From Actinomycetes bacterium (GTDB lineage Bacteria; Actinomycetota; Aquicultoria; Aquicultorales; Aquicultoraceae), in assembly GCA_021794835.1 (NCBI GenBank), contig JAJYQA010000011.1, forward strand, positions 1 through 44,360: a stretch of 44,360 nucleotides of DNA, given 5' to 3'. The position numbers were made by a program, and so were the translations under genes. Under the pieces are notes generated by a model, which ran no database searches, had not been told where the DNA came from, and saw only the letters and a list, made by a program, of their open reading frames with translations. How positions within the stretch are numbered: the stretch's first letter is position 1; every line of letters begins with the position of its first letter. Of the stretch, positions 6,053 to 38,463 are shown in pieces.

Positions 6053-6175
6053 GTTTTACCTTTCAGTATATTACTATAGATTTTCGGAACTAAGAACAAG
6101 CAACTGTAGTGCTAAATCCTAGGCCTGGGTCTCTAAAAAAGTCTAATTTCTAGTATCCTGTCTCTAGTATCTAGA

Positions 6176-7279: not shown

Positions 7280-7284
7280 ATTAT

Positions 7285-9177: not shown

Positions 9178-9210
9178 AAAAATCTGGCTCCTGATCCCGA
9201 GTCCGGAATC

Positions 9211-12610: not shown

Positions 12611-14011
12611 TTGGGTGAAGTGAGCTACGAGATAGCCATTATTGGAGGTGGTCCCGGCGGGTACTCGGCAGCCCTTAGGGCGGCAGAACTTGGTCTCAAA
12701 ACAGTGGTGATTGAGAAAGACAAGATCGGCGGCATCTGCCTACACCACGGGTGTATTCCAACCACAAGCCTTTTACAATGCGCAAAGGTACTTGAGACGG
12801 TCAATCGTTCTGATAAGTTCGGTATTAAAGTCGAGGGTATCTCTTACGACTGGCAGGCAATTCAAAAGGCTAAATCAGTCTCAGTTAACCGTCTGTTCAT
12901 GGGACTTAACACCCTATTTAAACAACGCAAGGTCGAGGTTATAAAAGGAACTGCGGCCTTTGATGAGCCAGGGTCGGTAAGAGTTGAGAATAATACTGGA
13001 TCACATACATTACTTACCGACAACATCATAATTGCAACTGGTTCCTCGCCAAGGGCAATTCCTGAGTTCCAAGGAAACCCAAATATGGCGATGGATACTA
13101 ACCAGGTTCTTGAGATAAACAAGGTTCCAAAATCGATTACGATTGTTGGTGGCGGCGCGTACGGTGTTGAGTTTGCCACTCTTTTTAAAACATTTGGCTC
13201 AGAGGTGTCGATCATCGAGAGGGCAGCACACCTTTTGCCCCGTGACGACCACGAGGTGGCAAAGTATCTCGAGAGATCTTTCGCTAAACGCGGGATAAGC
13301 ATATACACGAATACGAAAATCCAGGCGGCCGTGCAGACTAACGCCGGGGCGCAAATCGAAATCGAGAACCAATCAACCGGCGAGGTAAAAACAATAACCT
13401 CTGATAAGGTGCTGGTCACCGCAGGAAGAATTGCAAACCTTGATAACATTGATATCGAGACGCTGGGTTTGCGTACAAAATACGGCTTTATTGATACTGA
13501 TTCCGACATGAGGACAAATATCAAAGGTGTTTTCGCTGCCGGAGATGTCACCTTTAACCCCCAGTACGCCAACTTCGCCTTCTCGGAAGGTATCCATGCA
13601 GTTGAGATAATCGCTGGCATGGATCCCCCAACGCTCAATCTAAAACAGATACCTATATATACATTTGGTTCTCCAGAGCTGGCAAAGGTTGGATACACCG
13701 AAGATGAGGCTAAGCAGGCAGGTTTTGAGATTGAGACCGTGGGTCTCCCTTTACAGGCAGTACCCAGATCAGCGATCGACAAAGAAAGTATTGGATTTGC
13801 GAAAATAGTGTCCATAAAAGGGGGTCCGATCATCGGCGTTCATTTAATAGGCCCTGATGTAGTTAACTTGATCTCAGAAGCAATGCTTATCACAAACTGG
13901 GAGGCAACAGCGGAAGACGTGGCTCAGTTTCTCCATCCACACCCTTCATTTGCCGAATCGATTGGCGAGACGGTGTTGAAGCTGGCGGGAAAACCATTGC
14001 ATTCATTATAA
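12611..14011 (+). CDS. lpdA: Dihydrolipoamide dehydrogenase (E3)
   Basis: Flavoprotein that re-oxidises the dihydrolipoyl groups of the 2-oxoacid dehydrogenase complex and reduces NAD+. The FAD-binding GGGPGG is at residues 12-17. The redox disulfide is C43 and C48 (CLHHGC). The NAD-binding Rossmann motif is VGGGAYGVEF. The C-terminal catalytic His/Glu motif is HPHPSFAESIGE. Odd point: the residue after CIP-T, normally a conserved lysine near the flavin (CIPSK), is threonine 52 (CIPTTSLL). The TTG start has GGAGG ten bases upstream; GTG at 12620 is a less likely alternative. First gene of the PDH operon, 20 bases before pdhA. Confidence 0.95.
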   Translation: MGEVSYEIAIIGGGPGGYSAALRAAELGLKTVVIEKDKIGGICLHHGCIPTTSLLQCAKVLETVNRSDKFGIKVEGISYDWQAIQKAKSVSVNRLFMGLNTLFKQRKVEVIKGTAAFDEPGSVRVENNTGSHTLLTDNIIIATGSSPRAIPEFQGNPNMAMDTNQVLEINKVPKSITIVGGGAYGVEFATLFKTFGSEVSIIERAAHLLPRDDHEVAKYLERSFAKRGISIYTNTKIQAAVQTNAGAQIEIENQSTGEVKTITSDKVLVTAGRIANLDNIDIETLGLRTKYGFIDTDSDMRTNIKGVFAAGDVTFNPQYANFAFSEGIHAVEIIAGMDPPTLNLKQIPIYTFGSPELAKVGYTEDEAKQAGFEIETVGLPLQAVPRSAIDKESIGFAKIVSIKGGPIIGVHLIGPDVVNLISEAMLITNWEATAEDVAQFLHPHPSFAESIGETVLKLAGKPLHSL

Positions 14012-14031
14012 AAAGATCAGGAGGTAAGACT

Positions 14032-15009
14032 ATGCAGGTTAAGCCATTAGAGCTTGGTGCTAAGGAGCTAATGGATATCTACTATCTCATGCGGCTCGGG
14101 CGTGCGATTGAGGATCGCCTCAACCTCCTCTATAAAGGCGGAAGGCTCCCCGGGGCAATCTATCTTGGTACCGGCCAGGAAGCGATAGAAATTGGGGCTT
14201 CTTATGCCCTTGAGCCGGGTGATGTGCTTGCGCCCACCCACCGCGATATGATGTCGCAGCTTCCCAGAGGGATCACGCCAAGAGAGGTTTTTCTACAGCA
14301 CTATGCCAGGGCAGACAGTCTCACGCATGGCAAAGGCGAAGATAACTACCAGGGCGACTTAAAACGCGGTACTTTTGCAACAGTAAGTATGCTTCCCGAT
14401 TTTTACCCGGTGGCGGCAGGCGCCGCACTTGCCTTTAAGCTTCGCCGTGAAAAACAAGTTGCTATGGCCTATTGCGGCGAGGGTGCGACATCGGTCGGCG
14501 ATTGGCATGAGGCAATAAATGCCGCCTCGGTGCTTAACCTCCCCGTCGTTTTTGTTGTAATCAACAACGGATACGCCTATTCTACCCCCGTCTACAAGGA
14601 GATGAAAGTCGCAAACGTAGCGGATAGGGCCTGCGCTTATTCTATCCCCGGCGTCATTGTTGACGGAAATGATGTTATTGAGTGCTACCAGGGGGCCAAG
14701 AAGGCTGTTGAGAGAGCCCGCGAGGGCGGCGGTCCTACGCTAATTGAAGCAAAGACCATGCGTATGCGGGGCCACGCCGGACATGACCCGGCCACTTACG
14801 TGGCAAAAGATATAATCGATCTTTGGACAAAGCGCGACCCGATCGTACGCTTTGAAAACTACCTGACTGAGCGAGGTCTACTCGACGAAGATAAAAAGAA
14901 AGAGGTTATCGACCATGTAAATGCAACCGTCGAGGATGCGGTCAATTATGCAGAACAAAGCCCCTATCCAGAGGGAAAGGAGGCAACAGAAGATGTCTAC
15001 GCAGCCTAG
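14032..15009 (+). CDS. pdhA: 2-oxoacid dehydrogenase E1 component, alpha subunit
   Basis: Thiamine-diphosphate-dependent subunit that decarboxylates pyruvate or a branched-chain 2-oxoacid with the beta subunit. The TPP-binding motif runs from CGEGATSVGDWHEA to VVFVVINNGYAYSTP (G-E-G followed by N-N). The substrate and phosphoryl loops include RMRGHAGHDPATY. Its 325 residues are typical. The ATG is preceded by AGGAGG. It is 20 bases after lpdA and overlaps pdhB by 17 bases. Sequence alone does not cleanly separate pyruvate from branched-chain substrates, so the pdh name is provisional; the accompanying lipoate genes and single set of subunits fit a general complex. Confidence 0.92.
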   Translation: MQVKPLELGAKELMDIYYLMRLGRAIEDRLNLLYKGGRLPGAIYLGTGQEAIEIGASYALEPGDVLAPTHRDMMSQLPRGITPREVFLQHYARADSLTHGKGEDNYQGDLKRGTFATVSMLPDFYPVAAGAALAFKLRREKQVAMAYCGEGATSVGDWHEAINAASVLNLPVVFVVINNGYAYSTPVYKEMKVANVADRACAYSIPGVIVDGNDVIECYQGAKKAVERAREGGGPTLIEAKTMRMRGHAGHDPATYVAKDIIDLWTKRDPIVRFENYLTERGLLDEDKKKEVIDHVNATVEDAVNYAEQSPYPEGKEATEDVYAA

Positions 15010-16000
15010 CCAAAGTCAAGATGAACAAAAAGAGACACTTTTTATCGATGCGATATCTCAGGCTCTCTGGGAGGAGATGGAACGTGACTCAAGCATTTTT
15101 ATGATGGGAGAAGATATCGGTCCCTACGGGGGTGCGTTTAAAGTGACCAAGGGCTTTATTGAGCACTTCGGCCCGGAGAGGATAATCGATATGCCGATCG
15201 CCGAAGAAGCTTACACGGGCATGGCGGTTGGTGCTGCCTTAACAGGTATGCGCCCGGTTATCGAGTATCAGTATGCCGACTTTATATCCTGCGCCTGGGA
15301 TCAGATTGTAAACGTCGCCGCCAAGTACCATTACCGCACTCGCGAAGCCGTCCCGATGGTGATGAGAGCTCCATCCGGTGCGGGTCTAAGAGCTGGGCCG
15401 TTTCATAGCCAAAGCCCCGAGGGGTGGTTTGCTCACATGCCCGGGCTTAAAGTAGTTATGCCCGGCACTCCTTATGATGCCAAAGGCTTATTGAAAGCCG
15501 CTATAAGAGATAATAATCCGGTTATCTTTTTTGAACATAAGTACTTGTATCGACGCCTAAAGGAGCAAATACCAACTGATGACTATACCGTTCCAATCAG
15601 CAAGGCTAAGGTGCATAAAGAAGGGACAGACGCCACTATCATCACCTATGCGGCAATGCTTCAGGTTGCCCTTGAGGCGGCAAACAAAGCCCAAGAAAAA
15701 GGCATCTCCGTTGAGGTGGTAGACCTGAGAACTATCTACCCACTGGATAAAGAGACAATTTTAAACTCGGTTGCTAAGACAAGTAAGGCAATCATGCTCT
15801 ATGAGGATATAAAAACACTGGGGATTGGTGCAGAGGTCTCAGCCATTATCGCCGAGGAGGCATTTGAGAGCCTGGACGGTCCTGTTCTAAGGGTGGCCTC
15901 TCCCGATGCGCCGATACCATACAGTCCACCTCTGGAAGATTACTTTCTCCCAAAGGTGGACGATGTAATGGTGGCTATTGATAAGCTGTCAGCATATTAG
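14993..16000 (+). CDS. pdhB: 2-oxoacid dehydrogenase E1 component, beta subunit
   Basis: Beta subunit of the heterotetrameric E1. Recognisable family stretches are FMMGEDIGPYGGAFKVTKG, ERIIDMPIAEEAYTGMAVG and VVMPGTPYDAKGLLKAAIRD near the TPP/subunit interface. The protein has 335 residues. Start chosen at ATG 14993, inside the end of pdhA, because AAAGGAGG lies nine bases upstream and the N-terminus then matches family length; an upstream in-frame ATG at 14921 would add an unrelated 24 residues. After it comes a 218-base gap full of repeats before pdhC. Confidence 0.93.
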   Translation: MSTQPSQSQDEQKETLFIDAISQALWEEMERDSSIFMMGEDIGPYGGAFKVTKGFIEHFGPERIIDMPIAEEAYTGMAVGAALTGMRPVIEYQYADFISCAWDQIVNVAAKYHYRTREAVPMVMRAPSGAGLRAGPFHSQSPEGWFAHMPGLKVVMPGTPYDAKGLLKAAIRDNNPVIFFEHKYLYRRLKEQIPTDDYTVPISKAKVHKEGTDATIITYAAMLQVALEAANKAQEKGISVEVVDLRTIYPLDKETILNSVAKTSKAIMLYEDIKTLGIGAEVSAIIAEEAFESLDGPVLRVASPDAPIPYSPPLEDYFLPKVDDVMVAIDKLSAY

Positions 16001-16001
16001 A

Positions 16002-16140
16002 AGGCCAAAAGGCCAATGTTTTGTAGGTCTAGATATGTGGGTCGGCCAAAAGCCAATAAAGAATTGTCATTGCGAGAAACGAGCGCAGCGAGTGACGTGG
16101 CAATCCTATTGGCTATTGGCTACTTGGCTATTTGGCTTAC
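16002..16140. repeat. Composite palindromic repeat between pdhB and pdhC
   Basis: The centre (16065-16105) is a REP-like element with ends ATTGC and GCAAT and a GAGCGCAGCGAG core; short elements of this CATTGCGAG...GCAATC type are widespread in bacterial genomes. It is flanked on the left by GGCCAAAA, GGCCAATG, GGCCAAAA and GCCAATA words (16002-16059). On the right are four degenerate TTGGCTA words (16108-16138), which are reverse complements of the left ones. The whole could fold into one long imperfect hairpin in the operon mRNA. No T run follows it. Confidence 0.7.
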
Positions 16141-16218
16141 AAAACTAAACGTATAAGCATACGTAAATTTTAACGGATAGAGATTACTTATAGACAAAGA
16201 GATAGGAGTTGTTGACGT

Positions 16219-17676
16219 ATGACTGTTCCTGTCACAATGCCCCGGCTTGGTGAGACGGTCACCGAAGGAACTATCGTAAAATGGCTTAAAAACGAAGGCG
16301 ACTATGTTAATAAGGACGATAATCTTGTTGAGGTATCAACCGCAAAAGTAGAGACTGAACTGCCTTCCCCCGTCAGTGGAAGGATCACTAAGATAGTTGC
16401 ACAAGAGGACCAGACTGTCCCCGTAGACGCAGAGATTGCAGAAATAGATGAGACCGCAAAAGCAGCTGCACCGGAAGAAGCCGAAAAGCCAGCTGCACCA
16501 CCGGAAAAAGTGGCTGTACCACTGATAGCTCCGGCGCCAGCCCCAGCTCCAACACCGGCACCTGCCCCCGAGGTTGAGAAGGCCCCGCCCGCCCCAACAC
16601 CGGTGGCAAAACCACCAGAGAAGGCACCCCCTATCGGTTTCGTCTCACCGATTGTAAGAAAGCTTGCTCGAGAACATAATGTCGACCTGTCCAAAATTAC
16701 GGGAACCGGCGCGGGCGGACGAATTACCAGGCGGGATGTCGAGCAATATATCGCACAACAACCGGCTGTACCCGGACCCCCTAAACCGCCCATAGCACAG
16801 GCACCTCCAGTATCGCTTGCGCCTATGCCATCGGCCGAGGTACCGGAGCGCGAGTTTCCCGGCATGGCGGCGATGGAAGCCGAAAAGCCAGCTGCACCAC
16901 CGGAAAAAGCAGCCGTGCCACCGGCCAAGGCTAAACCTGGTCCACCTCCCGTGCCGCCGGCCCTACTTGGTGAGCACATAGTTGAAGTGCCCTATATGAG
17001 ATATGAAATAGCCAAGCACATGATCCAGAGCTGGCACATGGCGGCAAAGGTTACGGCAATTGTTGAAGTTGATATGACCGGCATCGCTAAACAGAGAGAC
17101 AGGTTTAAAGACGCGTTTAAGAAGCGCGAGGGATTCTCGCTCACTTATCTGCCCTTCGTTGCTAAAGCCACTATAGATGCGCTGCAAAACTTCCCGATGG
17201 TCAACTCGAGAATAATTGACGAGCACCATATTGCACTCCACGACTATGTAAACCTCGGGATTGCGGTTGCGATTGAGGATGGCTTAATTGTCCCGGTCGT
17301 TAAAGATGCCGATAGGATGAACTTGCTAGGACTTGCCCGCTCTATACACGACCTGGCTGAAAAAGCCCGGGAGGGCAAGCTCTCACCCGATGAAGTAACC
17401 GGCTCAACATTTTCAATTACAAATCCGGGCTCGTTTGGCTCGATCATCCAGACGCCGATCATAAACCAGCCCAATGTGGCCATCTTAAGTCTCGAGCTTA
17501 TTCAAAAAAGGCCGGTCGTTGTCGACGAGGCGATAGCAATACGCCATATGGTCTTTATGCCGCTCTCATACGATCACAGGCTGATTGATGGGGCCATGGC
17601 AGCGCAGTTTCTAAATCGGGTAAAACATAATCTTGAGACATGGGATTTCACGCCCGATCTTGCAAACCTTATGTAA
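16219..17676 (+). CDS. pdhC: Dihydrolipoamide acyltransferase (E2)
   Basis: Core acyltransferase of the complex; it moves the acyl group from E1 via lipoyl-lysine to CoA. The lipoyl domain (residues 1-77) has the modified lysine at K43 in VSTAKVETELPSP. A long Ala/Pro-rich linker follows. The E1/E3-binding domain lies at ~140-178 (SPIVRKLAREHNVDLSKITG), then a second Ala/Pro linker. The catalytic domain (~250-485) carries H453-x3-D457-G in YDHRLIDGA. Total 485 residues with one lipoyl domain. The two linkers share an exact 34-base duplication (16477-16510 and 16876-16909). A gap of 218 bases with repeats separates it from pdhB; lipB follows after 37 bases. Confidence 0.95.
   Translation: MTVPVTMPRLGETVTEGTIVKWLKNEGDYVNKDDNLVEVSTAKVETELPSPVSGRITKIVAQEDQTVPVDAEIAEIDETAKAAAPEEAEKPAAPPEKVAVPLIAPAPAPAPTPAPAPEVEKAPPAPTPVAKPPEKAPPIGFVSPIVRKLAREHNVDLSKITGTGAGGRITRRDVEQYIAQQPAVPGPPKPPIAQAPPVSLAPMPSAEVPEREFPGMAAMEAEKPAAPPEKAAVPPAKAKPGPPPVPPALLGEHIVEVPYMRYEIAKHMIQSWHMAAKVTAIVEVDMTGIAKQRDRFKDAFKKREGFSLTYLPFVAKATIDALQNFPMVNSRIIDEHHIALHDYVNLGIAVAIEDGLIVPVVKDADRMNLLGLARSIHDLAEKAREGKLSPDEVTGSTFSITNPGSFGSIIQTPIINQPNVAILSLELIQKRPVVVDEAIAIRHMVFMPLSYDHRLIDGAMAAQFLNRVKHNLETWDFTPDLANLM
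16477..16510 (+). repeat. 34-bp direct repeat, copy 1 (E2 linker)
   Basis: Encodes EAEKPAAPPEK in the linker between lipoyl and E1/E3-binding domains. Identical base for base to 16876-16909, including third codon positions, which points to a recent intragenic duplication or conversion. Confidence 0.9.
16876..16909 (+). repeat. 34-bp direct repeat, copy 2 (E2 linker)
   Basis: Second identical copy, in the linker between the E1/E3-binding and catalytic domains. Flanking bases differ between copies, so the duplicated unit is exactly this short. Confidence 0.9.
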
Positions 17677-26752: not shown

Positions 26753-27040
26753 ATGCCTTTACCACCTGTTTTGGCTTGTACAGTATTTGATTGCGTCTAT
26801 AACAAGGGCAGGTCCTGCCGCGCATCAGCAATCCACGTCGGCCAAGAGCACCCAACCTGCGATACTTACGAGAAAGGCATTGGGGGAAGTGAAATTGAGA
26901 GCCCACAAGCTACCGTAGGCGGCTGTGATGTGCTACTTTGTCGTTATAACGATAATCTAAGCTGCGGCGCGCCGGGGATTACCGTGAACCTCCATGAAAA
27001 CCACGCCGACTGCGAAACATTTGTGCCACGGCAGATATAG
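26753..27040 (+). CDS. Protein with two DUF1540 domains
   Basis: A 95-residue cysteine-rich protein. Two consecutive copies of the DUF1540 pattern: C9, C14, C22, C36 (CTVFDCVYN...SCRASAI) and C58, C63, C71, C87 (CDVLLCRYN...SCGAPGI). Four cysteines per copy suggest a small metal-binding fold. Function unknown in this family, which is common in spore-forming and actinobacterial genomes. The ATG has AGGAGG seven bases upstream. It converges with the small gene at 27047-27259, with a gap of only six bases and no terminator. Confidence 0.85.
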   Translation: MPLPPVLACTVFDCVYNKGRSCRASAIHVGQEHPTCDTYEKGIGGSEIESPQATVGGCDVLLCRYNDNLSCGAPGITVNLHENHADCETFVPRQI

Positions 27041-27281: not shown

Positions 27282-28691
27282 CTATAGTTTAATTATAGAC
27301 AGAAAAGCAGTTGGGTAAACACCGAAGAAGATCACAGCGGCCATGATAAGCACTATTGAGAGATAAAGAGGCTTTGAAATCGTCACCGTCCCATCAGACT
27401 CGGGGCTTACCAGGTACATCTGCCGGATAATCGTAACGTAGTAGCCGAACGATATCGCGCTGTTTAGGACACCGATAATAGCCAGCCATATCAGGTTTGA
27501 CGATACCGCAGCTTTAAATAGAAAGAATTTGCCCATAAAGCCTGCAAATGGCGGCAGCCCGACCAACGAAAACAGAAAGACCGCCATCGCAATGGCAAGC
27601 ACCGGCGCCCGCTTATGTAAACCCGCAAAGTCCGTTATGTTCTCCCCTATTCCCCGTTCTGTAGTTGCAAGCACTACAAGAAACGCGCCAAGTGCGGCTA
27701 GTGAGTATACGAAAAAGTAGAATATCATCGATGAGTAGCCAATTCTATTGGCTACGGCAAGACCGACCAGCAGATATCCGGTGTGTGCAACAGCTGAGTA
27801 ACCAAGAAGTCTTCTAACATGAGTCTGCGCCAGCGCTACTAGGTTTCCAGTAAACATACTTAATACCGCAAGGATTGCAAAAAAGGTAGCCCAGGCCGGT
27901 GCCGCCGAGGCAAGAGCCACCGGGAATAGATGAATTAGAGCGGCAAAACCACCAGCTTTAGGGCCAGCGGAGAGATACGATGCAACCGGCACCGGAGATC
28001 CCTCATAAACATCCGGCGCCCAGAAGTGAAACGGCACGGCAGCAACTTTAAAACCCAAGCCAACCATAATCATAAGTATTGCGACTAAAAGCATTGGTTC
28101 TAGGCTATGCCCATGCAGGCTGTTTGTAATTGCCGCAAAGTTGGTTGATCCAGTCGCGCCAAACAAAAGCGTCATGCCGTATAGCAGAATTACCGAGGCA
28201 ACAATCCCCAACAGGAAGTATTTCAAAGCTACCTCGGCCGAGCGTGCATCTCTTTTACTTGCCACAAGCACGTACGCCGGCAACACCGTAAGCTCAAGTG
28301 CTATGAAGAGCATGATTAGGTCTGTCGCTGAGGCCATAAGCATCGTGCCAAGCACCGAAAAAAGCATGAGGCTGAAGAACTCACCCTCGCCCAGCGTTAC
28401 CTTTACTTTAAGCGTGCCCAAAACTACCAGCGCAGTTGTTATAAGAAGTATCAGCTTTAAGACGTTGGCGGTGAGGTCCACCGAGAACATTCCATTAAAC
28501 TCGGTTATATTTATCCCCCACAGCCTGATAACGCTAACTATAGCAATTATAATCCCGACCAGTGCTACGGCACCGAGAGAACGCCTTGCGTCAGAATTTA
28601 AAAACAGCTCGCCTAAAAGGACGATTATCGCAAATCCCAATATAATAAGTTCCGGCATTATAGCCATCCAGTTAACCTGTGACCAGTCCAT
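27282..28691 (-). CDS. nuoN: NADH-quinone oxidoreductase subunit N
   Basis: Antiporter-like proton-pumping subunit in the membrane arm of complex I. It has 469 residues and about 14 membrane segments. Conserved features: the glutamate in LFIALELTVLPAYVLVAS, the lysine in ALKYFLLG, GLGFKVAAVPFHFWAPDVYE and LLGYSAVAHTGYLLVGL. It starts one base after the nuoM stop, with an AGAGG ribosome site inside nuoM. Last large gene of the operon. Confidence 0.95.
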   Translation of the reverse strand: MDWSQVNWMAIMPELIILGFAIIVLLGELFLNSDARRSLGAVALVGIIIAIVSVIRLWGINITEFNGMFSVDLTANVLKLILLITTALVVLGTLKVKVTLGEGEFFSLMLFSVLGTMLMASATDLIMLFIALELTVLPAYVLVASKRDARSAEVALKYFLLGIVASVILLYGMTLLFGATGSTNFAAITNSLHGHSLEPMLLVAILMIMVGLGFKVAAVPFHFWAPDVYEGSPVPVASYLSAGPKAGGFAALIHLFPVALASAAPAWATFFAILAVLSMFTGNLVALAQTHVRRLLGYSAVAHTGYLLVGLAVANRIGYSSMIFYFFVYSLAALGAFLVVLATTERGIGENITDFAGLHKRAPVLAIAMAVFLFSLVGLPPFAGFMGKFFLFKAAVSSNLIWLAIIGVLNSAISFGYYVTIIRQMYLVSPESDGTVTISKPLYLSIVLIMAAVIFFGVYPTAFLSIIKL

Positions 28692-28692
28692 T

Positions 28693-30159
28693 TTAGCTAC
28701 CTCTTACGATTTGTAATACCGTATTTACCGCAGGATTAATATAATGCAAGATTGGCTGCGGGTAAACACCAATAGCAACTATTAATATTATCAGCGGGAG
28801 CGCGCTTATCAACTCTCTGCCGCTTGCATCCTTAAAATCCCCCATCCAAGATTGCGGCATGCCAAATATTGCGTTCTGGTTTGCTCTTATCAGGTAGAAC
28901 GAGGTGAGTGCAAGGGTTAGCACGGCAAATATTGTGAAAATCTTGAAGACGCTGTATGACCCAAGCAGGATCAGCAGCTCGCCAACGAACCCGCTTAAGC
29001 CGGGGAGCCCCAAGGATGCGAGCGCCGCAAAGACAAACATTCCGCCAAGGATCGGTATCTTTATAGAGAGGCCACCCAGTTTCTTAATATCACGAGTGTG
29101 CGTCCTCTCGTAGATATATCCAACCATCAAAAAGAGCATACCGGTAATGAGCCCGTGGGCCACCATTTGAAGGACCGCGCCGTTTAGCGCGACCGGCGTA
29201 AGCGCGGCAATGCCAAGCATCACATAGCCCATGTGGCTAACACTGGAATATGCTACCATTTTCTTTAGGTCTTGCTGGGCCAGCGCCGTATATGCGCCGT
29301 AGACGATACTTATAACCGCCAGGACCGCGATAAACGGTGCAAATTTTACAAACTCGGCGGGAAGTATTTGAACGACTATTCTTATAAACGCATAGGTCCC
29401 CATCTTAAGAAGAATTCCGGCAAGAAGCACGCTGCCTGCCGCTGGGGCTTGAACGTGTGCGTCGGGAAGCCACGTGTGGAACGGCCACATCGGCACCTTA
29501 ACCGCAAAGCCTAAGAAGAACGTTATAAAGATAAACAAACCATACTGCGAGTGATATCCCGCCTGCATAAGTTTTACCATGTCAAACGTGCCCAGGCCGG
29601 ATGTAAAGTAAAGCGTGATAATACCGACAAGCATCAAAACACTTCCGGCCAACGTATATAAGAAGAACTTAACCGCCGCGTAGTTGCGGTTCTCCCCGCC
29701 CCATATGCCGATGATAAAGTACATCGGAATAAGGACAAGCTCCCAGAATATATAGAAGAGCACAAAATCAAGAGCTACAAAGGTTCCGAGCATACCAACT
29801 GCAAGAAGAAGCATCAGGCTATAGTGTTCTCTTACCCTATCTTTAATCGACCAGGACGCCAAAACCGCGACCACCGTCAGAAGCAGCGTGAGTTCAAAAA
29901 GCGGCAGGCTTATACCGTCAAGCCCGACATGGTATGAAATACCGGCCTTTGGTATCCAGGATGCCTTCTCAACAAATTGCATGCCTGCCTGACCCAACTT
30001 GTACCCCGTTAAAACTACGATACCTAAGCCGAGGTCGATAAGCGTTACCAACAAAGCAAACGTGCGAATTAGATTTGCCCTGCTGCGCGGTACAAACTGC
30101 AAGAGCAGGGCTCCGAGCACTGGTAAGAATATTATTATTGTTATAATCGGGTAACTCAT
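28693..30159 (-). CDS. nuoM: NADH-quinone oxidoreductase subunit M
   Basis: Proton-pumping antiporter-like subunit. 488 residues, about 14 membrane segments. The key glutamate is in FYIFWELVLIPMYFIIG and the key lysine in FAVKVPMWPFHTWLPDAH; DLKKMVAYSSVSHMGY is the third conserved channel region. Twelve bases after nuoL and one base before nuoN, so tightly coupled. Nothing unusual in the sequence. Confidence 0.96.
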   Translation of the reverse strand: MSYPIITIIIFLPVLGALLLQFVPRSRANLIRTFALLVTLIDLGLGIVVLTGYKLGQAGMQFVEKASWIPKAGISYHVGLDGISLPLFELTLLLTVVAVLASWSIKDRVREHYSLMLLLAVGMLGTFVALDFVLFYIFWELVLIPMYFIIGIWGGENRNYAAVKFFLYTLAGSVLMLVGIITLYFTSGLGTFDMVKLMQAGYHSQYGLFIFITFFLGFAVKVPMWPFHTWLPDAHVQAPAAGSVLLAGILLKMGTYAFIRIVVQILPAEFVKFAPFIAVLAVISIVYGAYTALAQQDLKKMVAYSSVSHMGYVMLGIAALTPVALNGAVLQMVAHGLITGMLFLMVGYIYERTHTRDIKKLGGLSIKIPILGGMFVFAALASLGLPGLSGFVGELLILLGSYSVFKIFTIFAVLTLALTSFYLIRANQNAIFGMPQSWMGDFKDASGRELISALPLIILIVAIGVYPQPILHYINPAVNTVLQIVRGS

Positions 30160-30171
30160 CTCTTCACACCT

Positions 30172-32013
30172 TTAATGTATGCCTAAAAATCTAAACGACC
30201 ATATTATTAAAATTATCAGTCCAACCAGCATAAACAATGCGTAGTTCTGTACGTAGCCGGTCTGCAGGCGTTTCATTCCACTGCCAAAGGCAGCGGTGGC
30301 TTTAGCTACTCCGTTTACAATTCCATCAACGACGATCTGATCAAATTTAAGAACAAACCTTGCCAGCACATGCGTCGGCGTGATTAGCACATATTGATAA
30401 AGCTCGTCCATATAGTATTTGTTCGCCACCAGCTTGTAAACCGGATTGTTCTTGCCGATGATGTTTTCTGGCAGAAGTTGCGTCCCATACTTTAGCCAGG
30501 CAGCGGTGATGCCAATCAAAGCCACGGCTACTGAAAGACCCATTACCAAGGGATTTATAGCCTCCGCCTCGTGCCCAGGGGCAATGAATCCCTGGAAAGC
30601 ATTATGCATAAACGGCGACCCTAGCAGACCCGCAGTTAGGGCAAAAAATCCTAAAATAAGAAGCGGGATACTCATAACCGCCGGCGACTCATGGGCGTGG
30701 CCATGGTGGTCCGCCCTGGGCTGGCCGAAGAAGACCACAAAGATCAACCGGAATGTGTAAAATGCAGTAAGCAGTGCGGTCAGAATACCAATCCAAAAGA
30801 TCACCGTGTGTCCGCTCGTATAAGCACCGAGGAGGATTTCATCCTTGCTCCAAAATCCTGCAAACGGCGGCACTCCGGCAAGCGCAAGTCCCCCTATAAT
30901 AAACGTTATGGAGGTTATCTTCATCTTCTTCCACAGGCCGCCCATCTCAAATATCTCCTGGCTGTGAACCGCATGGATTACACTACCTGCGCCAAGGAAG
31001 AGAAGTGCCTTGAAAAACGCGTGGGTAAAGAGATGAAATGCACCTGCGGCGAATGCGCCGACGCCTAAGCCCATCATCATATAGCCAAGCTGGCTTATGG
31101 TAGAGTACGCCAAAACCTTCTTTATATCTGTTGCGGTAAGCGCAATGGTTGCGGCCATAAATGCTGTAATCGTTCCAATTACCGCAACAAACTCGAGTGA
31201 GGCTGGACCCTTTTCAAATAATGGGTATGACCTTGCAACCAGGTAAACACCGGCGGCAACCATAGTAGCTGCGTGGATTAACGCGCTAACCGGGGTTGGG
31301 CCTTCCATGGCATCGGGCAACCACACGTGAAGCGGGAATTGCGCCGATTTTCCAACTGCTCCGAAGAACATCAAAATTGATATGGTTGCGGCAAGGGCCG
31401 GTGCGAAGTGCATTGCAAACAACTTGCCCATATCAAGTGTGCCAGCGTGTACGTAAAGGAGAATGAGGGCAATAGCAAAACCAAGATCGCCAACTCGTGT
31501 AACCATAAAGGCTTTCTTTGCCGCCTGGCTTGCGCTTCTCTTTTCAAACCAGAACCCGATCAAGAGATACGAGAAAACGCCGACGCCTTCCCAGGCCATA
31601 TACATTTGCACATAGTTCGGGGCAAACACCAGAAGAAGCATTGATGCCGTAAACATAGAGAGACATGCGTAGAACCAACCGTAGCGTTTATCACCGTGCA
31701 TATAGCCCATTGAGAAGATCTGCACCAGCGCACTGACTAGAGTCACCACGACCAGCATCATGGCCGATAGTGGATCCAGGAGAAATCCAAAAGTTATATG
31801 GAAGCTGCCGATGGAAGCCCAGGTAAAGAGAACTTTAGTACTTAACCCGCCAAGTACATCGATCAAAGCTTTAATGGATAGACCTAAGCTGATCAGTACA
31901 GCGGCTATTGAGACGTAAGCTGATTTACCGCCCCATCTCTTACCAAAGATCACAAGTGTTATAAAGCTTAAAATCGGCACTAATACTATTAACGGAAGAT
32001 AATAAGCTAACAT
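30172..32013 (-). CDS. nuoL: NADH-quinone oxidoreductase subunit L
   Basis: Distal antiporter-like subunit with the long lateral helix that ties the membrane arm together. 613 residues. Conserved stretches: YMAWEGVGVFSYLLIGFWF with the functional glutamate, GAVGKSAQFPLHVWLPDAME with the lysine, and SALIHAATMVAAGVYLVAR. The C-terminal ~100 residues include the amphipathic lateral helix and a final membrane anchor (LFMLVGLIILIIWSF). It begins 19 bases after nuoK. Confidence 0.96.
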   Translation of the reverse strand: MLAYYLPLIVLVPILSFITLVIFGKRWGGKSAYVSIAAVLISLGLSIKALIDVLGGLSTKVLFTWASIGSFHITFGFLLDPLSAMMLVVVTLVSALVQIFSMGYMHGDKRYGWFYACLSMFTASMLLLVFAPNYVQMYMAWEGVGVFSYLLIGFWFEKRSASQAAKKAFMVTRVGDLGFAIALILLYVHAGTLDMGKLFAMHFAPALAATISILMFFGAVGKSAQFPLHVWLPDAMEGPTPVSALIHAATMVAAGVYLVARSYPLFEKGPASLEFVAVIGTITAFMAATIALTATDIKKVLAYSTISQLGYMMMGLGVGAFAAGAFHLFTHAFFKALLFLGAGSVIHAVHSQEIFEMGGLWKKMKITSITFIIGGLALAGVPPFAGFWSKDEILLGAYTSGHTVIFWIGILTALLTAFYTFRLIFVVFFGQPRADHHGHAHESPAVMSIPLLILGFFALTAGLLGSPFMHNAFQGFIAPGHEAEAINPLVMGLSVAVALIGITAAWLKYGTQLLPENIIGKNNPVYKLVANKYYMDELYQYVLITPTHVLARFVLKFDQIVVDGIVNGVAKATAAFGSGMKRLQTGYVQNYALFMLVGLIILIIWSFRFLGIH

Positions 32014-32032: not shown

Positions 32033-32344
32033 TTACCACTTAAATATATTGATTCTATCTATATCCACCGACTGAACATTACGGTAGATCGTAAGCACTA
32101 TAGCCAAACCTACAGCCACCTCAGAGGCCGCAATCGCCATAACAAACAGGGCGAACATCTGCCCCGAGATGACACTTGGCGTTACATACCTCGAGAATGC
32201 CACCAAGTTAATGTTGGCCGCATTCAACATAATCTCAACCGAGAACAATATGGTCACTGCATTTTGCCTGAGCAAAACACCGATCAAGCCAATCCCAAAC
32301 AATATCGCGCTTACTATTAAATACCATGAAAGAGGTATTACCAT
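32033..32344 (-). CDS. nuoK: NADH-quinone oxidoreductase subunit K
   Basis: Small membrane subunit at the centre of the proton path. 103 residues with three membrane helices. The conserved glutamate of helix 2 is in LFSVEIMLNAANIN, and a second conserved acidic position is in AIAASEVAVGLAI. Its start overlaps the nuoJ stop by one base (TAATG-type junction). Confidence 0.96.
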   Translation of the reverse strand: MVIPLSWYLIVSAILFGIGLIGVLLRQNAVTILFSVEIMLNAANINLVAFSRYVTPSVISGQMFALFVMAIAASEVAVGLAIVLTIYRNVQSVDIDRINIFKW

Positions 32345-32850
32345 TACTGCTTAACCTCCTGACGGGCAATAACTATAGCTCCTATCAATGCTGCAAGAAG
32401 TAGTACCGACATTACTTCAAAAGGCAAGATGTAATTCGTCATAAACAGCTTACCTACCAAAGATGTTGTATCCTTCGGAACTGCGGCGTTCGATACGCTA
32501 AGATTAACCTTAGTAAACACTGAAACAAGAAGTGCTACAAAACCGGCAACTGCAAGAATTGTAAACACTTTTTGCTTTATCGCCGATACCATGCGCACAT
32601 TAGTCATCTGCGAGGTCATCATAATACCGAAAAGTAGTACCACGATAACCCCGCCGACATAGACAAATACCTGCATTATGCCAACAAGATCGGCATCCAG
32701 CAAGAAATAAAAGCCGGCTACAACCAACATCAATAAGCCTAAAAACATGGCTGCGTGAAACAGGTTTCTCCTGGTTATAATCGCCAGCGCGCTAATTATA
32801 GCTACTGCAGATAATCCGAAAAATATTATGTATGTGATTATATCGTTCAT
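32344..32850 (-). CDS. nuoJ: NADH-quinone oxidoreductase subunit J
   Basis: Membrane subunit of complex I with five predicted helices in 168 residues. The conserved FYFLLDADLVGIMQVFVYVG and GGVIVVLLFGIMMTSQ identify it, including the pi-bulge helix that links quinone chemistry to proton pumping. It overlaps nuoK by one base. The 120 bases before it, after the nuoI-like gene, hold a long hairpin, so expression of nuoJKLMN might differ from that of the upstream genes. Confidence 0.93.
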   Translation of the reverse strand: MNDIITYIIFFGLSAVAIISALAIITRRNLFHAAMFLGLLMLVVAGFYFLLDADLVGIMQVFVYVGGVIVVLLFGIMMTSQMTNVRMVSAIKQKVFTILAVAGFVALLVSVFTKVNLSVSNAAVPKDTTSLVGKLFMTNYILPFEVMSVLLLAALIGAIVIARQEVKQ

Positions 32851-32970: not shown

Positions 32971-34890
32971 TCATTGGCGCAAGACTTTTTCTTTATCGTA
33001 GAACAGCCTGTCCTTTACATATTCGGCGTTCTCGTAATCTTTGCTCATCTCAAGCGCACCTGTTGGGCATGTTTCCGCACATAAACCACAGAATAAGCAC
33101 TTGGTTAGATTAAGATCGTACTTGAGAACCTTGCGATTGGTCTCTAGTGGGCCGGTTCTCTCAACATCGATGCAGCTCGTTGGGCAAGCCCGTGCGCACA
33201 TCGTACACCCGCTGCAGTTTCCGTTATTGCAAACAAGACAGCGGTTTGCCTCACGAATCGCTTCTTCCTCGGTAAAGCCGAGCTCAACCTCGGCAAAACC
33301 CTTAGTTCTCTCTTCAAGGGGCAGCATCTTCATATGAACCCTGCGCCTCTCCGGCTCTACCCCATCCAGATAGGTCTGACCGTAGCTATACGGTCTTGCG
33401 AGAACCTGCGCGGTTCTTCCCTCTTTTAAGTCGACCCCTCGCAAAAACCTGTCAAGCGACTCCGCCGCCTCGTGCCCGCTTGCAATTGCCTGGATTGCGG
33501 CACCCGCGCCCGTTACAACCTCGCCCGCCGTAAAGACCTTCGGGTTAGATGTTTGAAGCGTCAGTTTATCGTATACAATCACGCCTTTTGCATTTAGCTC
33601 GAGATTTACACCTTCAAGGAAGCTCAAATCGGTTTTCTGTCCGATGGCGGTAACGACTGTATCAACATCGAGGACAAACTCGCTACCGGCAATCGGCTCA
33701 GGACGACGACGCCCTGATGCATCCGGCTCGCCAAGCCCCATGCGGACGCACTCAAGACCGGCGACTTTGCCGTTCTCGACGATAACTCTCGTCGGGTTGG
33801 TCAAAAGCTCGAAGATAACGCCTTCTTCTTCGGCCTCATGTATCTCTTCGAAGCGGGCCGGCATCTCGGCTCTACCACGGCGATATATCAGATAGACCTG
33901 CTCGGCACCAAGCCTAAGCGAAGTCCTTGCACCGTCCATGGCAACGTTTCCACCACCAACAACTGCAACTTTTTTGCCTAGCTCGGGATGATTATCGAAA
34001 TTCATCTCTTTAAGTAGATCTAAGCAACCCCAGACGCCTTCGGCGTCTTCTCCCTCGATACCGAGGTTGTACCCTGCCGGAAGGCCGGTTGCAAGAAGCA
34101 CTGCATCGTAGGAGTCAATTAGATCGTTTAGTTTGATGTCCTTTCCAACCTCAACGTTGGTTTTTAGTTCAACACCGAGGGCGCATACCGCATCGACATC
34201 CCATTTCAATACGTTCTTGGGAAGCCTGTATTTTGGAATACCGGTAAGAAGCGTGCCGCCGCCCTGCGGGTTCTTATCGTAGATGGTTACCGGATAGCCC
34301 TCTTTCGCCAGAACCTGGGCCGCCGTTAGACCTGCCGGCCCCCCACCGATAATGGCAACTTTTTTGTCTTTAGTCTTAGGAACGGCCTGCGGATGAGGCT
34401 TATCCATGTTGGAATCGGCTGCAAAACGCTTAAGATCACGGATGGATATCGGCTCGTCAAACTTGTTGCGCCGGCAGCCGGTCTCACACGGCCTCGTGCA
34501 AACACGCCCGATTGAGGCCGGAAGAGTGCACCGCTCACGGATTAAATCCAGCGAGTCCTTAAAACGGCCTTCTGCAATAAGCTCGACATAGCCCCGGGCA
34601 TCAACGTGGGCCGGACAAGAGAAAACGCACGGCGGAAGTTCTTCGGATTCTTGCTTCTGCTTTATCGTTGCGTTGAACTCACCCAGCACGTTTGGGAACT
34701 TCTCCGTCTCGGTCGCCTCACCCATAACACCTTTTAGCATTGGGGCACCGCGGAAGCGATCGGCAAGCTCGGGCTTCTCGAATGGATAGAACTCCGTTAC
34801 CCGAGGCGCCCTAAGCTTTTTCGCCGTAATGCTATGACCTATAAATATGCTTTTCCACGCATCGATAAAATCTGAAAACCGTCCAGACAT
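32971..34890 (-). CDS. Chimeric NuoI with an inserted GltD/NfnB-type FAD-NAD(P)H oxidoreductase
   Basis: Occupies the nuoI position of complex I; 639 residues, against about 140-180 for normal NuoI. Residues ~5-51 match the NuoI N-terminus (HSITAKKL, then VTEFYPFEKPELADRFRG). At ~85-160 is a GltD-type iron-sulfur region: C88, C92, C121, C131, C135, C139. The FAD site is IIGGGPAGLTAA (180-191), the NAD(P)H site VVGGGNVAMDGART (310-323) followed by YRRGRAEMPA, whose arginines favour NADPH; AGEVVTGAGAAIQAIASG (455-472) closes the flavin domain. Residues ~551-639 return to NuoI: C559, C562, C565, C569 and C598, C601, C604, C608 bind two [4Fe-4S] clusters, and KDRLFYDKEKVL is the family end. Inferred: it oxidises NAD(P)H and passes electrons to the NuoI clusters. 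AAGG lies nine bases before the ATG. Confidence 0.9.
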   Translation of the reverse strand: MSGRFSDFIDAWKSIFIGHSITAKKLRAPRVTEFYPFEKPELADRFRGAPMLKGVMGEATETEKFPNVLGEFNATIKQKQESEELPPCVFSCPAHVDARGYVELIAEGRFKDSLDLIRERCTLPASIGRVCTRPCETGCRRNKFDEPISIRDLKRFAADSNMDKPHPQAVPKTKDKKVAIIGGGPAGLTAAQVLAKEGYPVTIYDKNPQGGGTLLTGIPKYRLPKNVLKWDVDAVCALGVELKTNVEVGKDIKLNDLIDSYDAVLLATGLPAGYNLGIEGEDAEGVWGCLDLLKEMNFDNHPELGKKVAVVGGGNVAMDGARTSLRLGAEQVYLIYRRGRAEMPARFEEIHEAEEEGVIFELLTNPTRVIVENGKVAGLECVRMGLGEPDASGRRRPEPIAGSEFVLDVDTVVTAIGQKTDLSFLEGVNLELNAKGVIVYDKLTLQTSNPKVFTAGEVVTGAGAAIQAIASGHEAAESLDRFLRGVDLKEGRTAQVLARPYSYGQTYLDGVEPERRRVHMKMLPLEERTKGFAEVELGFTEEEAIREANRCLVCNNGNCSGCTMCARACPTSCIDVERTGPLETNRKVLKYDLNLTKCLFCGLCAETCPTGALEMSKDYENAEYVKDRLFYDKEKVLRQ

Positions 34891-34906: not shown

Positions 34907-35914
34907 TTATAACACCATTATTAATCCGGTTATCAATACATTTAGAAGGGCTAAGGGCAATAACACTTTCCAACCCAAATCCATTACCTGATCTATACGG
35001 AACCGTGGGAGAGTCCAGCGTATCCACATGGCCAGGTATATAATTGCAAACATCTTGATAAGGAACCAGACGGGTGCCAAAAATTCGGGACCCGGCCCGT
35101 GCCAGCCGCCAAGGAATAGCACCACAGCTAAAGCCGATCCCGCAATCAGGGCGATGTATTCGCCGAACAGGAAAAACAGGAAGCGCGTACCGCTATATTC
35201 GGTATGATATCCGTTTACCAACTCCGATTCGGTCTCAGGAAGATCAAACGGCACTCTGTTAGTCTCAGCAAGTGTTGAAACTAGAAACACAACAAATCCG
35301 ATTGGCTGCAAGAAAATATACCAGGCATGCTGTGTACCCACAATCGCCGTCAGTTTCGCCGATCCCGCGATCATAACCACACCGAGAATCGACAGCGCCC
35401 TCGGGACTTCATAGCTAACCATCTGCGCAGCAGAGCGAAGACTGCCCAGTATCGCGTATTTATTGTACGATCCAAAGCCGGCCATTATAACACCTGCTAC
35501 GCCAATGGCTGGCACTGCCAAAACATATAGCAAGCCCACGTTTAAATCCTGAACAACAAGGTGTGGGCCGATAGGCATAACCATAAGCCCAATAAACGCA
35601 GGCAAAAACACAAGCACGGGAGCAAGACGGAATATCCAGCGATCTGCATTCCTGGGAAAAATATCCTCTTTAGATAACAGTTTCACTGAGTCGGCAATAA
35701 GCTGTAGAACTCCGTGCCAGCCAACGTGCATTGGCCCCCAACGAAGTTGCATATCGGCAGCTACTTTACGCTCCATGTAAACCAGAATCAGTACTCCCAA
35801 ACCGCATAAGGCAAAAACTACTAGCGACATAATAAGGGCTATTGAAGTATTGAGCACCCAAATAGGCATTCCATTATGAGATGCAAACTGAAGTAACGAG
35901 CTACTTGATAGCAT
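34907..35914 (-). CDS. nuoH: NADH-quinone oxidoreductase subunit H
   Basis: Membrane subunit that forms much of the quinone chamber. 335 residues, eight predicted helices. Conserved: YMERKVAADMQLRWGP with the following HVGWHGVLQLIADSVKLL, and VPFDLPETESELVNGYHTEY, whose acidic loop couples quinone reduction to pumping. It shares one base with nuoD and ends 16 bases before the chimeric nuoI-like gene. Normally nuoE, F and G stand between nuoD and nuoH; here the two genes touch. Confidence 0.96.
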   Translation of the reverse strand: MLSSSSLLQFASHNGMPIWVLNTSIALIMSLVVFALCGLGVLILVYMERKVAADMQLRWGPMHVGWHGVLQLIADSVKLLSKEDIFPRNADRWIFRLAPVLVFLPAFIGLMVMPIGPHLVVQDLNVGLLYVLAVPAIGVAGVIMAGFGSYNKYAILGSLRSAAQMVSYEVPRALSILGVVMIAGSAKLTAIVGTQHAWYIFLQPIGFVVFLVSTLAETNRVPFDLPETESELVNGYHTEYSGTRFLFFLFGEYIALIAGSALAVVLFLGGWHGPGPEFLAPVWFLIKMFAIIYLAMWIRWTLPRFRIDQVMDLGWKVLLPLALLNVLITGLIMVL

Positions 35915-37107
35915 TAGCGATCCACCTCTCCAAATACCGGATCGAGGGTTCCAAGTGTTAGAACAACATCACCGAGATATGCGCCTTCTGCTATTGCCGG
36001 GAACGCCTGCAGGTTTGCAAAGCTAGGACCTTGTATTTTTACCCTATAAGGCTTGATCGAGCCATCACTCACAATATAGTATCCGAGATCACCACGGCTT
36101 GATTCAACATGGGCGAATGCCTCTCCTGCCGGCGGCCTTATATCTTTTGCAACGCCATCAGCTATAATAGGACCGTCAGGAAGTTGCTCGATCGCCTGCT
36201 TTAATATCTTTAAACTCTGCTTGATTTCATCTGATCTTATGCAAACGCGATCATAATTATCGCCGTTATCTTTAATTACAACATCGAAATCCATTCTTGG
36301 ATAAACCGAGTATGGATCCGACCTTCTTATATCATACGGAATACCGGTCGACCTTAACGGTGGGCCGGTAATTCCCCAATCCAACGCCCTCTCTGCTGAA
36401 AACGGCGCGACACCTTTCATTCTTTTCTTGAATATATAGCCTCCGAGCAATAACTTATCGTATTCAAGTATTGTTTTCTCAAGCCTGTTTATAAAGGCCA
36501 GTGCATCCTCAAGCCAACCATCCGGAAGATCTGCGCTCACGCCACCGATTCTTACATAGTTATATGTCAACCGTGCACCGCATAGTCTCTCAAAAAGCCA
36601 TAATATTCTTTCGCGTTCATCGAAGAAATAAAAGAATGGGGAAAGAGCGCCAGCCTCTGTTGCAGTCGTTGCTAAAAATAGCAAGTGCGATGCAATACGT
36701 TGAAACTCGGCAAAGATAACCCTGAGATATTCTGCCCTTTCCGGGACTTTTATATCGGCTAGTTTTTCAACCGTCATGGCATAGGCCCAGCCATTATGCA
36801 TCGAAGACACGTAATCCATCCGGTCGGTAAAAGGCATGAATTGGGAATAGGTTCTCTTTTCCGCTATTTTCTCGAAGCATCTATGCAGGTAACCTATATA
36901 CGGCACAATCTTCGTTACAACTTCTCCGTCTAAGTTAAAGATTGCACGAAGGACGCCGTGCGCACTAGGGTGCTGCGGTCCAAAATTAAGTACTAGTTCC
37001 TCGGTTTTAAGGGTGGGCTCACTCTCTCGAGTCTCATCAAACGCGAGTTCTTTTTCCAGCTCGGCTAGATTAGCCTTTGAAACTTTGGTTTCTTCTATTT
37101 TACTCAC
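35914..37107 (-). CDS. nuoD: NADH-quinone oxidoreductase subunit D
   Basis: 49-kDa subunit forming the quinone pocket with NuoB. The N-terminal quinone-site loop is LNFGPQHPSAHGVLR with its histidines; other family stretches are GYLHRCFEKIAEKRTYSQ, RVGGVSADLPDGW-like IGGVSADLPDGW, and the C-terminus GTLDPVFGEVDR. Start: GTG at 37107, overlapping the end of nuoC by eight bases, gives 397 residues. Another frame extension to 37188 would overlap nuoC by 89 bases and add an unrelated hydrophobic stretch, so I rejected it; GTG 37113 is also possible. The chain is not fused to NuoC. Confidence 0.95.
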   Translation of the reverse strand: MSKIEETKVSKANLAELEKELAFDETRESEPTLKTEELVLNFGPQHPSAHGVLRAIFNLDGEVVTKIVPYIGYLHRCFEKIAEKRTYSQFMPFTDRMDYVSSMHNGWAYAMTVEKLADIKVPERAEYLRVIFAEFQRIASHLLFLATTATEAGALSPFFYFFDERERILWLFERLCGARLTYNYVRIGGVSADLPDGWLEDALAFINRLEKTILEYDKLLLGGYIFKKRMKGVAPFSAERALDWGITGPPLRSTGIPYDIRRSDPYSVYPRMDFDVVIKDNGDNYDRVCIRSDEIKQSLKILKQAIEQLPDGPIIADGVAKDIRPPAGEAFAHVESSRGDLGYYIVSDGSIKPYRVKIQGPSFANLQAFPAIAEGAYLGDVVLTLGTLDPVFGEVDR

Positions 37108-37597
37108 TGTCACCAGGCCTATCTGTACGATAATCTTCAAAAACAACCATACGATCGTCTTTATAATCCTTGCGAAGCGGGTATCCAACCCAATCTTCTG
37201 GCATAAACATTCTGCGCGGATCGGGATGGCCCTTAAATTCTACTCCCAGCAAATCATAAGTTTCTCTCTCGTGCCAATTTGCGGAAGACCAAATTGGAGT
37301 TAACGAATCTATAACAGGGTCGCTCTTCGGCACTTCTGTCTTAATAATTACAGCGACTTGGTTCTTTTGTTTGCTTGAGTAAACCCTATAGGTCAACTTT
37401 ATACTATCGGGCATGTCAACGCCCGCAACGAATGTAAGCAAATCAAAGCCCGCCTCTTTAAGCCCTACAGCAGCTTTTAGAATATCCTCCCTGGCCACTG
37501 TAAGCGTGTAGCCGAGCCCTTTTTCCTCGACTATCTTTAATTCGTTTGGATCTTTTTCCCCTTGGCCGTTTTTGCCAACAATGTTCTCGTTACTCAT
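37100..37597 (-). CDS. nuoC: NADH-quinone oxidoreductase subunit C
   Basis: 30-kDa subunit of the peripheral arm. 165 residues with the signature HERETYDLLGVEFKGHPDPR followed by FMPEDWVGYPLRKDYK. The ATG has AGAGGT a few bases upstream. It lies 15 bases after nuoB and overlaps nuoD by a few bases. The N-terminal ~20 residues are polar and not conserved. Confidence 0.94.
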   Translation of the reverse strand: MSNENIVGKNGQGEKDPNELKIVEEKGLGYTLTVAREDILKAAVGLKEAGFDLLTFVAGVDMPDSIKLTYRVYSSKQKNQVAVIIKTEVPKSDPVIDSLTPIWSSANWHERETYDLLGVEFKGHPDPRRMFMPEDWVGYPLRKDYKDDRMVVFEDYRTDRPGDSE

Positions 37598-37612: not shown

Positions 37613-38113
37613 CTATTTACTCTTTAATAACTCTATTTGTCCTCTAGCCATTATTTTTTCTTTTAGTTTTTCAATACCATGCATAACTGCCTCTGGACGT
37701 GGCGGACAGCCCGGTACATATACATCGACCGGAATAACCTTGTCGACGCCTTTTACTACGTTGTAGCTGTCATAATAAAACGGACCGCCGTTAATCGCAC
37801 AGCTACCCAGAGCTATAACATACTTTGGATCTGGCATCTGTTCATAAAGTTGCTTAATCATGGGAGCCATTTTATGAGTTACAGTTCCAGCAACTAGCAT
37901 TAGATCCGATTGTCTCGGGGTATTACGGAGTAATATTCCAAACCGATCAGCGTCAAAACGGGCTGAGTTTACCATCATAATGGTATCGATCGCGCAGCAT
38001 GCCAAACCAAAACCCATCCACCACAAGGAATTCTTGCGTCCCCAATTTATGAGGTCGCCCGCTTTGGTTAGCATTATTCCGTTATCAAGCATTTGCTCTT
38101 TAACTATACCCAC
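37613..38113 (-). CDS. nuoB: NADH-quinone oxidoreductase subunit B
   Basis: Carries the terminal [4Fe-4S] cluster N2, the direct electron donor to quinone. 166 residues. Ligands are C39 and C40 ([12 protein letters not shown]), C105 ([10 protein letters not shown]) and C136 ([12 protein letters not shown]). In this organism N2 would receive electrons from the NuoI-like chimera. It overlaps nuoA by ten bases. Length and ligands are canonical. Confidence 0.97.
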
Positions 38114-38463
38114 TTTAATACTCCTTTACGCCAGGCGTAGAAGAGGCCCAGCACAAGAATTGCGATAAAAATAAGCATTTCAACGAATGCAAATAGACCG
38201 AGGCTCTTAAACACAACCGCCCACGGAAAAATAAATAGCATTTCAACATCGAAGATAACTAACAGTAGCCCAAAAATGTAGTAATGAATCTTAAACTGGA
38301 TTCTTGGATCACCGGTTATGTTAGGTACACCGCACTCGTAAGTATCAAGTTTTGCTTGCGTAGGTTGTCTAGTTTGAAGCAGTTTCGAGGCTCCAAGCAT
38401 AGCAGCAACAACAATGATTCCAACTATTAAGAAAACCGTAAAATAAATTATTGCACTTACCAT
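38104..38463 (-). CDS. nuoA: NADH-quinone oxidoreductase subunit A
   Basis: Small membrane subunit next to the quinone chamber. 119 residues with three helices; the family signature is [25 protein letters not shown]-like, seen here as [19 protein letters not shown], with the loop cysteine C45 region (YECG) and the acidic [13 protein letters not shown]. First gene of the operon. AAGGA lies ten bases before the ATG. A leader of about 197 bases separates it from ndk and contains a 14-base palindrome (38493-38506) and a TATAAT at 38643-38648 on the minus strand, without a clear -35 box. Confidence 0.95.

Follow-up and report, generated by a model that had tools for sequence, protein, structure and literature searches.

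In this work, we describe a complex I operon from an Actinomycetes bacterium in which the NuoI subunit is split by a complete dehydrogenase module. The operon lies in a stretch of 44,360 nucleotides, referred to below as the window. We consider it likely that its product is a proton-pumping quinone reductase of 11 subunits that belongs to the complex I family, and that NuoI in this complex carries a built-in, non-bifurcating NADPH dehydrogenase in replacement of NuoEFG; activity, direction and assembly are inferred. In the proposed mechanism, NADPH would reduce the FAD of the inserted GltD/StnC-like module (FAD content being inferred as well), and single electrons would pass from FAD through a proximal and a distal cluster to N6a, N6b, N2 in NuoB and finally quinone, whose reduction would drive pumping by NuoH and NuoJ-N. 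The inserted module would take the place of NuoEFG without bifurcation. In most relatives, the donor for the same design would probably be NADH.

Structure of the Fused NuoI

The fused nuoI::gltD gene (32971..34890, minus strand; ATG at 34890, stop at 32971) is a single open frame of 639 amino acids in the nuoI slot. An earlier note on this DNA had read it as a protein that starts and ends as NuoI, which Pfam and NCBIfam matches, operon order and relatives in other genomes confirm. The NuoI N-terminal part (residues 1–62; 34705..34890, minus strand) comprises a long amphipathic helix (residues 2–27) and the YP and RFRG motifs, with R47 and G48 present in 50 of 50 fused proteins. The inserted module, of about 495 residues, follows (residues 63–557; 33220..34704, minus strand). 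Its edges, which are approximate, were set from the plain NuoI proteins (159–168 amino acids) of three genomes of the same family, G004, G007 and G010; MAFFT put the N-side edge wrongly, and that boundary was therefore read by eye. The insertion into NuoI proposed in the earlier note stands, but its placement exactly after RFRG has to be refined, as NuoI homology continues beyond this motif to GE(T/A)xxxE before it breaks.

Within the module, Pfam and conservation delimit a Fer4_20 domain (residues 86–163; 34402..34635, minus strand) with C88, C92, C131, C135, C139 and K154, followed by FAD- and NAD(P)-binding Rossmann domains (residues 176–485; 33436..34365, minus strand) that are supported by Pfam (Pyr_redox_2, 176–472), AlphaFold and fold matches. 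Such Rossmann folds behind a Fer4_20 front domain are what is expected of GltD/NfnB. The NuoI ferredoxin domain, with clusters N6a and N6b, occupies residues 558–639 (32974..33219, minus strand) and is recognized by NCBIfam and by eight conserved cysteines; two CxxCxxCxxxCP motifs (Pfam 4Fe-4S, 558–614) and the NuoI C-terminus, in the nuoI slot, qualify it as NuoI. NCBIfam assigned residues 71–617 to PRK12771 (GltD-like) and 556–635 to NuoI TIGR01971 (positions 41–120 of 121). The TIGR01971 score (87.5 bits) does not reach the whole-protein cut-off of 113.05 bits because the insert separates the NuoI N-terminal part.

AlphaFold, run with 70 rows, predicted one ordered protein including the ferredoxin part (pLDDT 88.5, pTM 0.84); with 14 rows the ferredoxin part remained unresolved. 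The best fold matches of the prediction were 9bov and 9n5u (NfnABC) and 8oh5 (StnC). The description of the insert as a GltD/NfnB-type dehydrogenase is upheld in general terms, its nearest relatives being StnC and NfnA of the Stn and NfnABC transhydrogenases rather than plain GltD or NfnB.

The nuo Operon

All 11 subunits NuoA-D and NuoH-N are encoded in one locus, on the minus strand, in the order nuoA-B-C-D-H-[fusion]-J-K-L-M-N. Family profiles identified nuoA (38104..38463), nuoB (37613..38113), nuoC (37100..37597), nuoD (35914..37188), nuoH (34907..35914), nuoJ (32344..32850), nuoL (30172..32013), nuoM (28693..30159) and nuoN (27282..28691), while nuoK (32033..32344) was assigned from its position in the operon, its size and its orthology with nuoK of sister operons. 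The N2 ligands of NuoB (C39, C40, C105 and C136) are intact in the window and do not vary among 17 operons. As expected of an 11-subunit complex I, the C-terminal [NiFe] cysteine pair is missing from NuoD. No nuoE, nuoF or nuoG was found in the nuo operon of the window, which does not qualify as a 14-subunit complex.

Elsewhere in the window, genes of a pyruvate dehydrogenase complex (E3, E1 beta and E2 by Pfam; 12611–17676, plus strand) are unusual neighbors for an apparently anaerobic-type complex I. On the strand opposite to the operon, a small cysteine-rich DUF1540 protein (26753–27040, plus strand) is encoded between an acetyl-CoA synthetase-like gene and nuoN.

Cluster Ligands and Electron Donor

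Across 50 fused sequences, C88, C92, C131, C135, C139, C551 (49 of 50), C554 and the eight NuoI cysteines are conserved, and position 154 is K in 12 and H in 38. Six Fe-S-type cysteines had been noted in the front part of the insert; five of them are the first five just listed (C88 to C139), but the sixth, C121, is not conserved. We mapped ligand roles from NfnB, whose proximal cluster is held by C51, C90, C96 and E117 and distal cluster by C39, C42, C47 and C100 (PMC7596348), and from StnC, whose proximal (FAD-side) cluster has three cysteines and K170 as ligands. On this basis, the proximal cluster of the fusion is inferred to be bound by C92, C131, C135 and K/H154, with K154 aligning with StnC K170, and the distal cluster by C88, C139, C551 and C554.

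The last two cysteines belong to a conserved RCLxC pair just ahead of the NuoI motif that was overlooked in the earlier note (RCLVC in the window protein, residues 550–554; 33229..33243, minus strand; C554 in 50 of 50). The N-terminal CxxC that serves the distal cluster in GltD/NfnB is absent from the fusion, and mapping the distal-cluster CxxC onto solved N-termini with a short query returned ferredoxin matches only. Given a distal site with C88 and C139 and without that CxxC, RCLxC is the obvious replacement and is predicted to complete the distal cluster beside N6a. Since C554 lies five residues from C559, the first N6 cysteine, the distal cluster and N6a should be within tunneling range, an inference from spacing alone. 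Fifteen conserved cysteines and one K/H make 16 ligands, exactly enough for four [4Fe-4S] clusters, and the assignment uses up every conserved cysteine. The cysteine count and the intact N2 ligands support the earlier proposal of a built-in input module feeding N6a/N6b; assembly with NuoB, NuoC and NuoD, like activity and the direction of flow, is inferred.

As to the donor, the earlier note had left NADPH and NADH side by side. The window protein has YRR at residues 336–338 (33877..33885, minus strand), a motif that binds the NADP phosphate in NfnB and DsrL-2 (PMC7596348), and by this precedent NADPH is favored over NADH. YRR occurs in 11 of the 50 fused proteins; the remaining 39 have an acidic third residue, mostly as xLE, and there the donor is probably NADH. 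The specificities of the window module for NADPH and of most relatives for NADH are thus inferred from motif analysis.

Other Electron Inputs and the Direction of Flow

According to the earlier note, a second normal nuoI together with nuoEFG in the host would speak against a built-in input. No second NuoI was found in the host genome, and its only NuoE/F/G relatives are of the soluble Stn/formate-dehydrogenase type. On host contig C2, a NuoF relative is flanked by a NuoE-like protein and a StnC/FdhA-like protein of 1125 amino acids, an arrangement that identifies a soluble Stn/FDH-type enzyme. A separate NuoI or NuoEFG in the host was rejected. In none of 23 genomes did NuoG score above the family cut-off. 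No NuoG match of any strength was found in G018, the closed genome G155 or the f55 genomes, and G018 had a NuoF match only at a weak level (E = 7e-9).

Several further GltD fusions were observed in the host on L039 (G000:C2), L040 (G000:C31) and L042 (G000:C34). They include StnC-like proteins with NuoG/FdhA parts, some of their frames with an in-frame TGA that possibly encodes selenocysteine, and one with HdrA/VhuD-like C-terminal parts.

A complex I with plain NuoI is kept beside the fused version in G155, G185, G204, G075, G264 and G013. G185 has two nuo loci, and the published description of the cultured Parvivirga hydrogeniphila Es71-Z0120 also gives two nuo loci, with NuoI missing from the list for one of them, and no NuoEFG. 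The presence of both forms in one lineage fits a division of labor by donor. In G013, the two complex I loci are L024 7092–10357, with plain NuoI and a NuoG-like gene beside nuoH, and L023 7493–9403, with fused NuoI.

The same complex could conceivably run mainly backward, with reduced ferredoxin (or quinol plus the proton-motive force) feeding N6 and the FAD site making NADPH, or NADH in relatives, as a gradient-coupled NADP reductase. Ferredoxin has been proposed as donor for other 11-subunit complexes (PMC11238625), GltD-family modules such as DsrL are reversible (PMC7596348), and the host is rich in genes for Stn-type transhydrogenases and HdrA-like proteins. Against this, the separate plain-NuoI complex I of G155, G185, G204, G075 and G264 is what one would expect from isoforms with separate donors. 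We regard the reverse direction as rather unlikely, although sequence cannot set direction, and entry of electrons from ferredoxin at N6 cannot be ruled out.

There is even less room for a branched or bifurcating enzyme in which NADPH, ferredoxin and quinone would exchange electrons within one complex. The homologue NfnB does bifurcate, and NuoI is, by inference, a plausible ferredoxin docking site. The Glu found at the proximal cluster of bifurcating NfnB, however, occurs in none of the 50 fused proteins; Lys or His in its place groups the module with StnC, which was shown to pass NADPH electrons without bifurcating. Moreover, the operon has no genes for a second high-potential branch.

Distribution and Evolution of the Fusion

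A search for other NuoI-GltD-NuoI proteins, proposed in the earlier note as a check and restricted to this phylum (Actinomycetota), was positive in about 80 genomes from roughly 24 families. A scan of genomes with peptide patterns turned up a single near relative. In the host's family, 7 of 11 genomes have a full-length fusion, and in an eighth, G005, the gene is interrupted by contig ends. Fusions extend beyond the family to its order and class and to further classes of the phylum; 59 of 298 genomes sampled from the class of G155 have one, as do 5 of 299 from that of G075. All operons examined carry the fusion inside the nuo cluster, mostly with nuoH and nuoJ as its neighbors; G013, G037, G075 and G264 have a rearranged cluster in which it comes after nuoD.

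Two irregularities were observed among the loci. The fused gene of G023 (L026, 4695–6544) is split into two frames (155 and 451–472 amino acids), by a frameshift or an assembly error. Some operons (L019, L020 and L021, group C below) have extra antiporter-like subunits after NuoM/NuoN and seemingly lack canonical NuoL.

For phylogenetic comparison, fusions were divided into group A (that of the window), group B (the xLE type) and group C (families f6, f11 and f15). In trees of the FAD part, A joins B and C falls elsewhere; tests rejected A with C and did not reject A with B (p = 0.054). Trees built from the nucleotide domain placed A with YRR types, even when the motif columns were left out, and rejected its grouping with B (p = 1.8e-5). 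Vertical descent of the whole insert from one origin common to all fusions was rejected (AU p = 1.7e-5, FAD-part tree). The simplest reading of the two sets of trees is that at least two insertions may have occurred at one place and that the nucleotide domain was swapped in the window's lineage, with the caveat of long branches and quick trees.

In the host's family, three plain-NuoI genomes are nested among fused ones on the operon tree. Their complex is of the same 11-subunit kind, so the family does not strictly depend on the module. Simple deletion of the insert is unsupported for these sisters, whose nuoI genes (G004, G007 and G010) form their own clade (support 100/99); grouping of the G010 NuoI with its congeners was rejected (p = 1e-6). 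Compared with congeners, the G010 operon is 92–100% identical in nuoK-N, 84–86% in nuoJ and only 41–79% from nuoA to nuoI; the breakpoints lie upstream of nuoA and where nuoJ begins. At L029 (G010), 3702–9475, the segment from nuoA to nuoI looks block-replaced from a distant plain-NuoI relative, and nuoJ-N and the upstream flank have about 91% DNA identity to congeners. From these identities, the Q-module block seems to have been exchanged together with its NuoI type in G010, which is a 77%-complete draft.

The plain NuoI in the same operon slot of sister species could be taken to mean that the inserted domain is redox-dead, or merely structural or regulatory. We find this very improbable, as the nucleotide-binding glycines, all cluster ligands and the NAD(P) motif are kept across deep divergence and the module was inserted more than once. 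An assembly chimera or accidental in-frame fusion, which the draft state of the source genome (44 contigs) might suggest and which the earlier note had named for testing, is excluded by dozens of independent assemblies, by the presence of the fusion in about 80 genomes, one of them (G155) a closed single contig, and by conserved junctions and invariant ligands.

Relation to Known Systems and Significance

The fusion resembles several known enzymes in part. StnC of StnABC (Sporomusa ovata, 8oh5) and NfnA of NfnABC (9bov, 9n5u), the closest matches in sequence and fold, likewise have a GltD module joined to a complex I-type Fe-S part and a K ligand at the proximal cluster. In them, however, the module is joined to NuoG/FdhF-like parts in a soluble bifurcating transhydrogenase, whereas in the window it sits inside NuoI of a membrane proton pump; the NuoG/FdhF-like C-terminal part of StnC is not found in the fusion, whose C-terminus is that of NuoI. 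NfnB/GltD and DsrL share with the module the FAD and NAD(P) Rossmann folds and the cluster-binding front domain, and DsrL also has a C-terminal two-cluster ferredoxin domain (PMC7596348). Unlike the fusion, these proteins are soluble, and in NfnB the distal cluster is served by an N-terminal CxxC and the proximal cluster by Glu.

The 11-subunit complexes of Desulfitobacterium, Dehalococcoides and Anaerosomatales have, like the window operon, nuoABCDHIJKLMN without NuoEFG, but no built-in donor module has been described for them, the donor being unknown or proposed to be ferredoxin. The 14-subunit complex I shares with the window complex the Q and P modules and the N6a-N6b-N2 wire and differs in its input: FMN in NuoF via NuoG there, and a GltD fold with FAD at the N6a position in the window complex. 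We found no published description of a NuoI-GltD fusion in the open-access literature, and a covalent GltD-type NAD(P)H module in NuoI is new within the limits of this phylum and of the literature searched.

What donates electrons directly to NuoEFG-less complex I has been stated to be unresolved, no donor protein shared by such complexes having been identified to date (PMC11238625). The fusion suggests an answer to what feeds them, and a donor module joined covalently to the complex makes the question testable. More tentatively, the input side of complex I may be an exchangeable socket at the start of the NuoI ferredoxin domain, into which different dehydrogenases were plugged more than once, with a nucleotide domain that can be swapped from NADH-type to NADPH-type and a Q-module block traded between species as plain or dehydrogenase-bearing NuoI; some complexes might even be three-way hubs of NAD(P)H, ferredoxin and quinone. 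NADPH- and NADH-type versions can be compared, and sister species without the module offer natural controls. If the proposed mechanism is true, the fusion would represent a second route by which the oxidation of nicotinamides is linked to complex I, using FAD in a GltD fold and entering at N6a.
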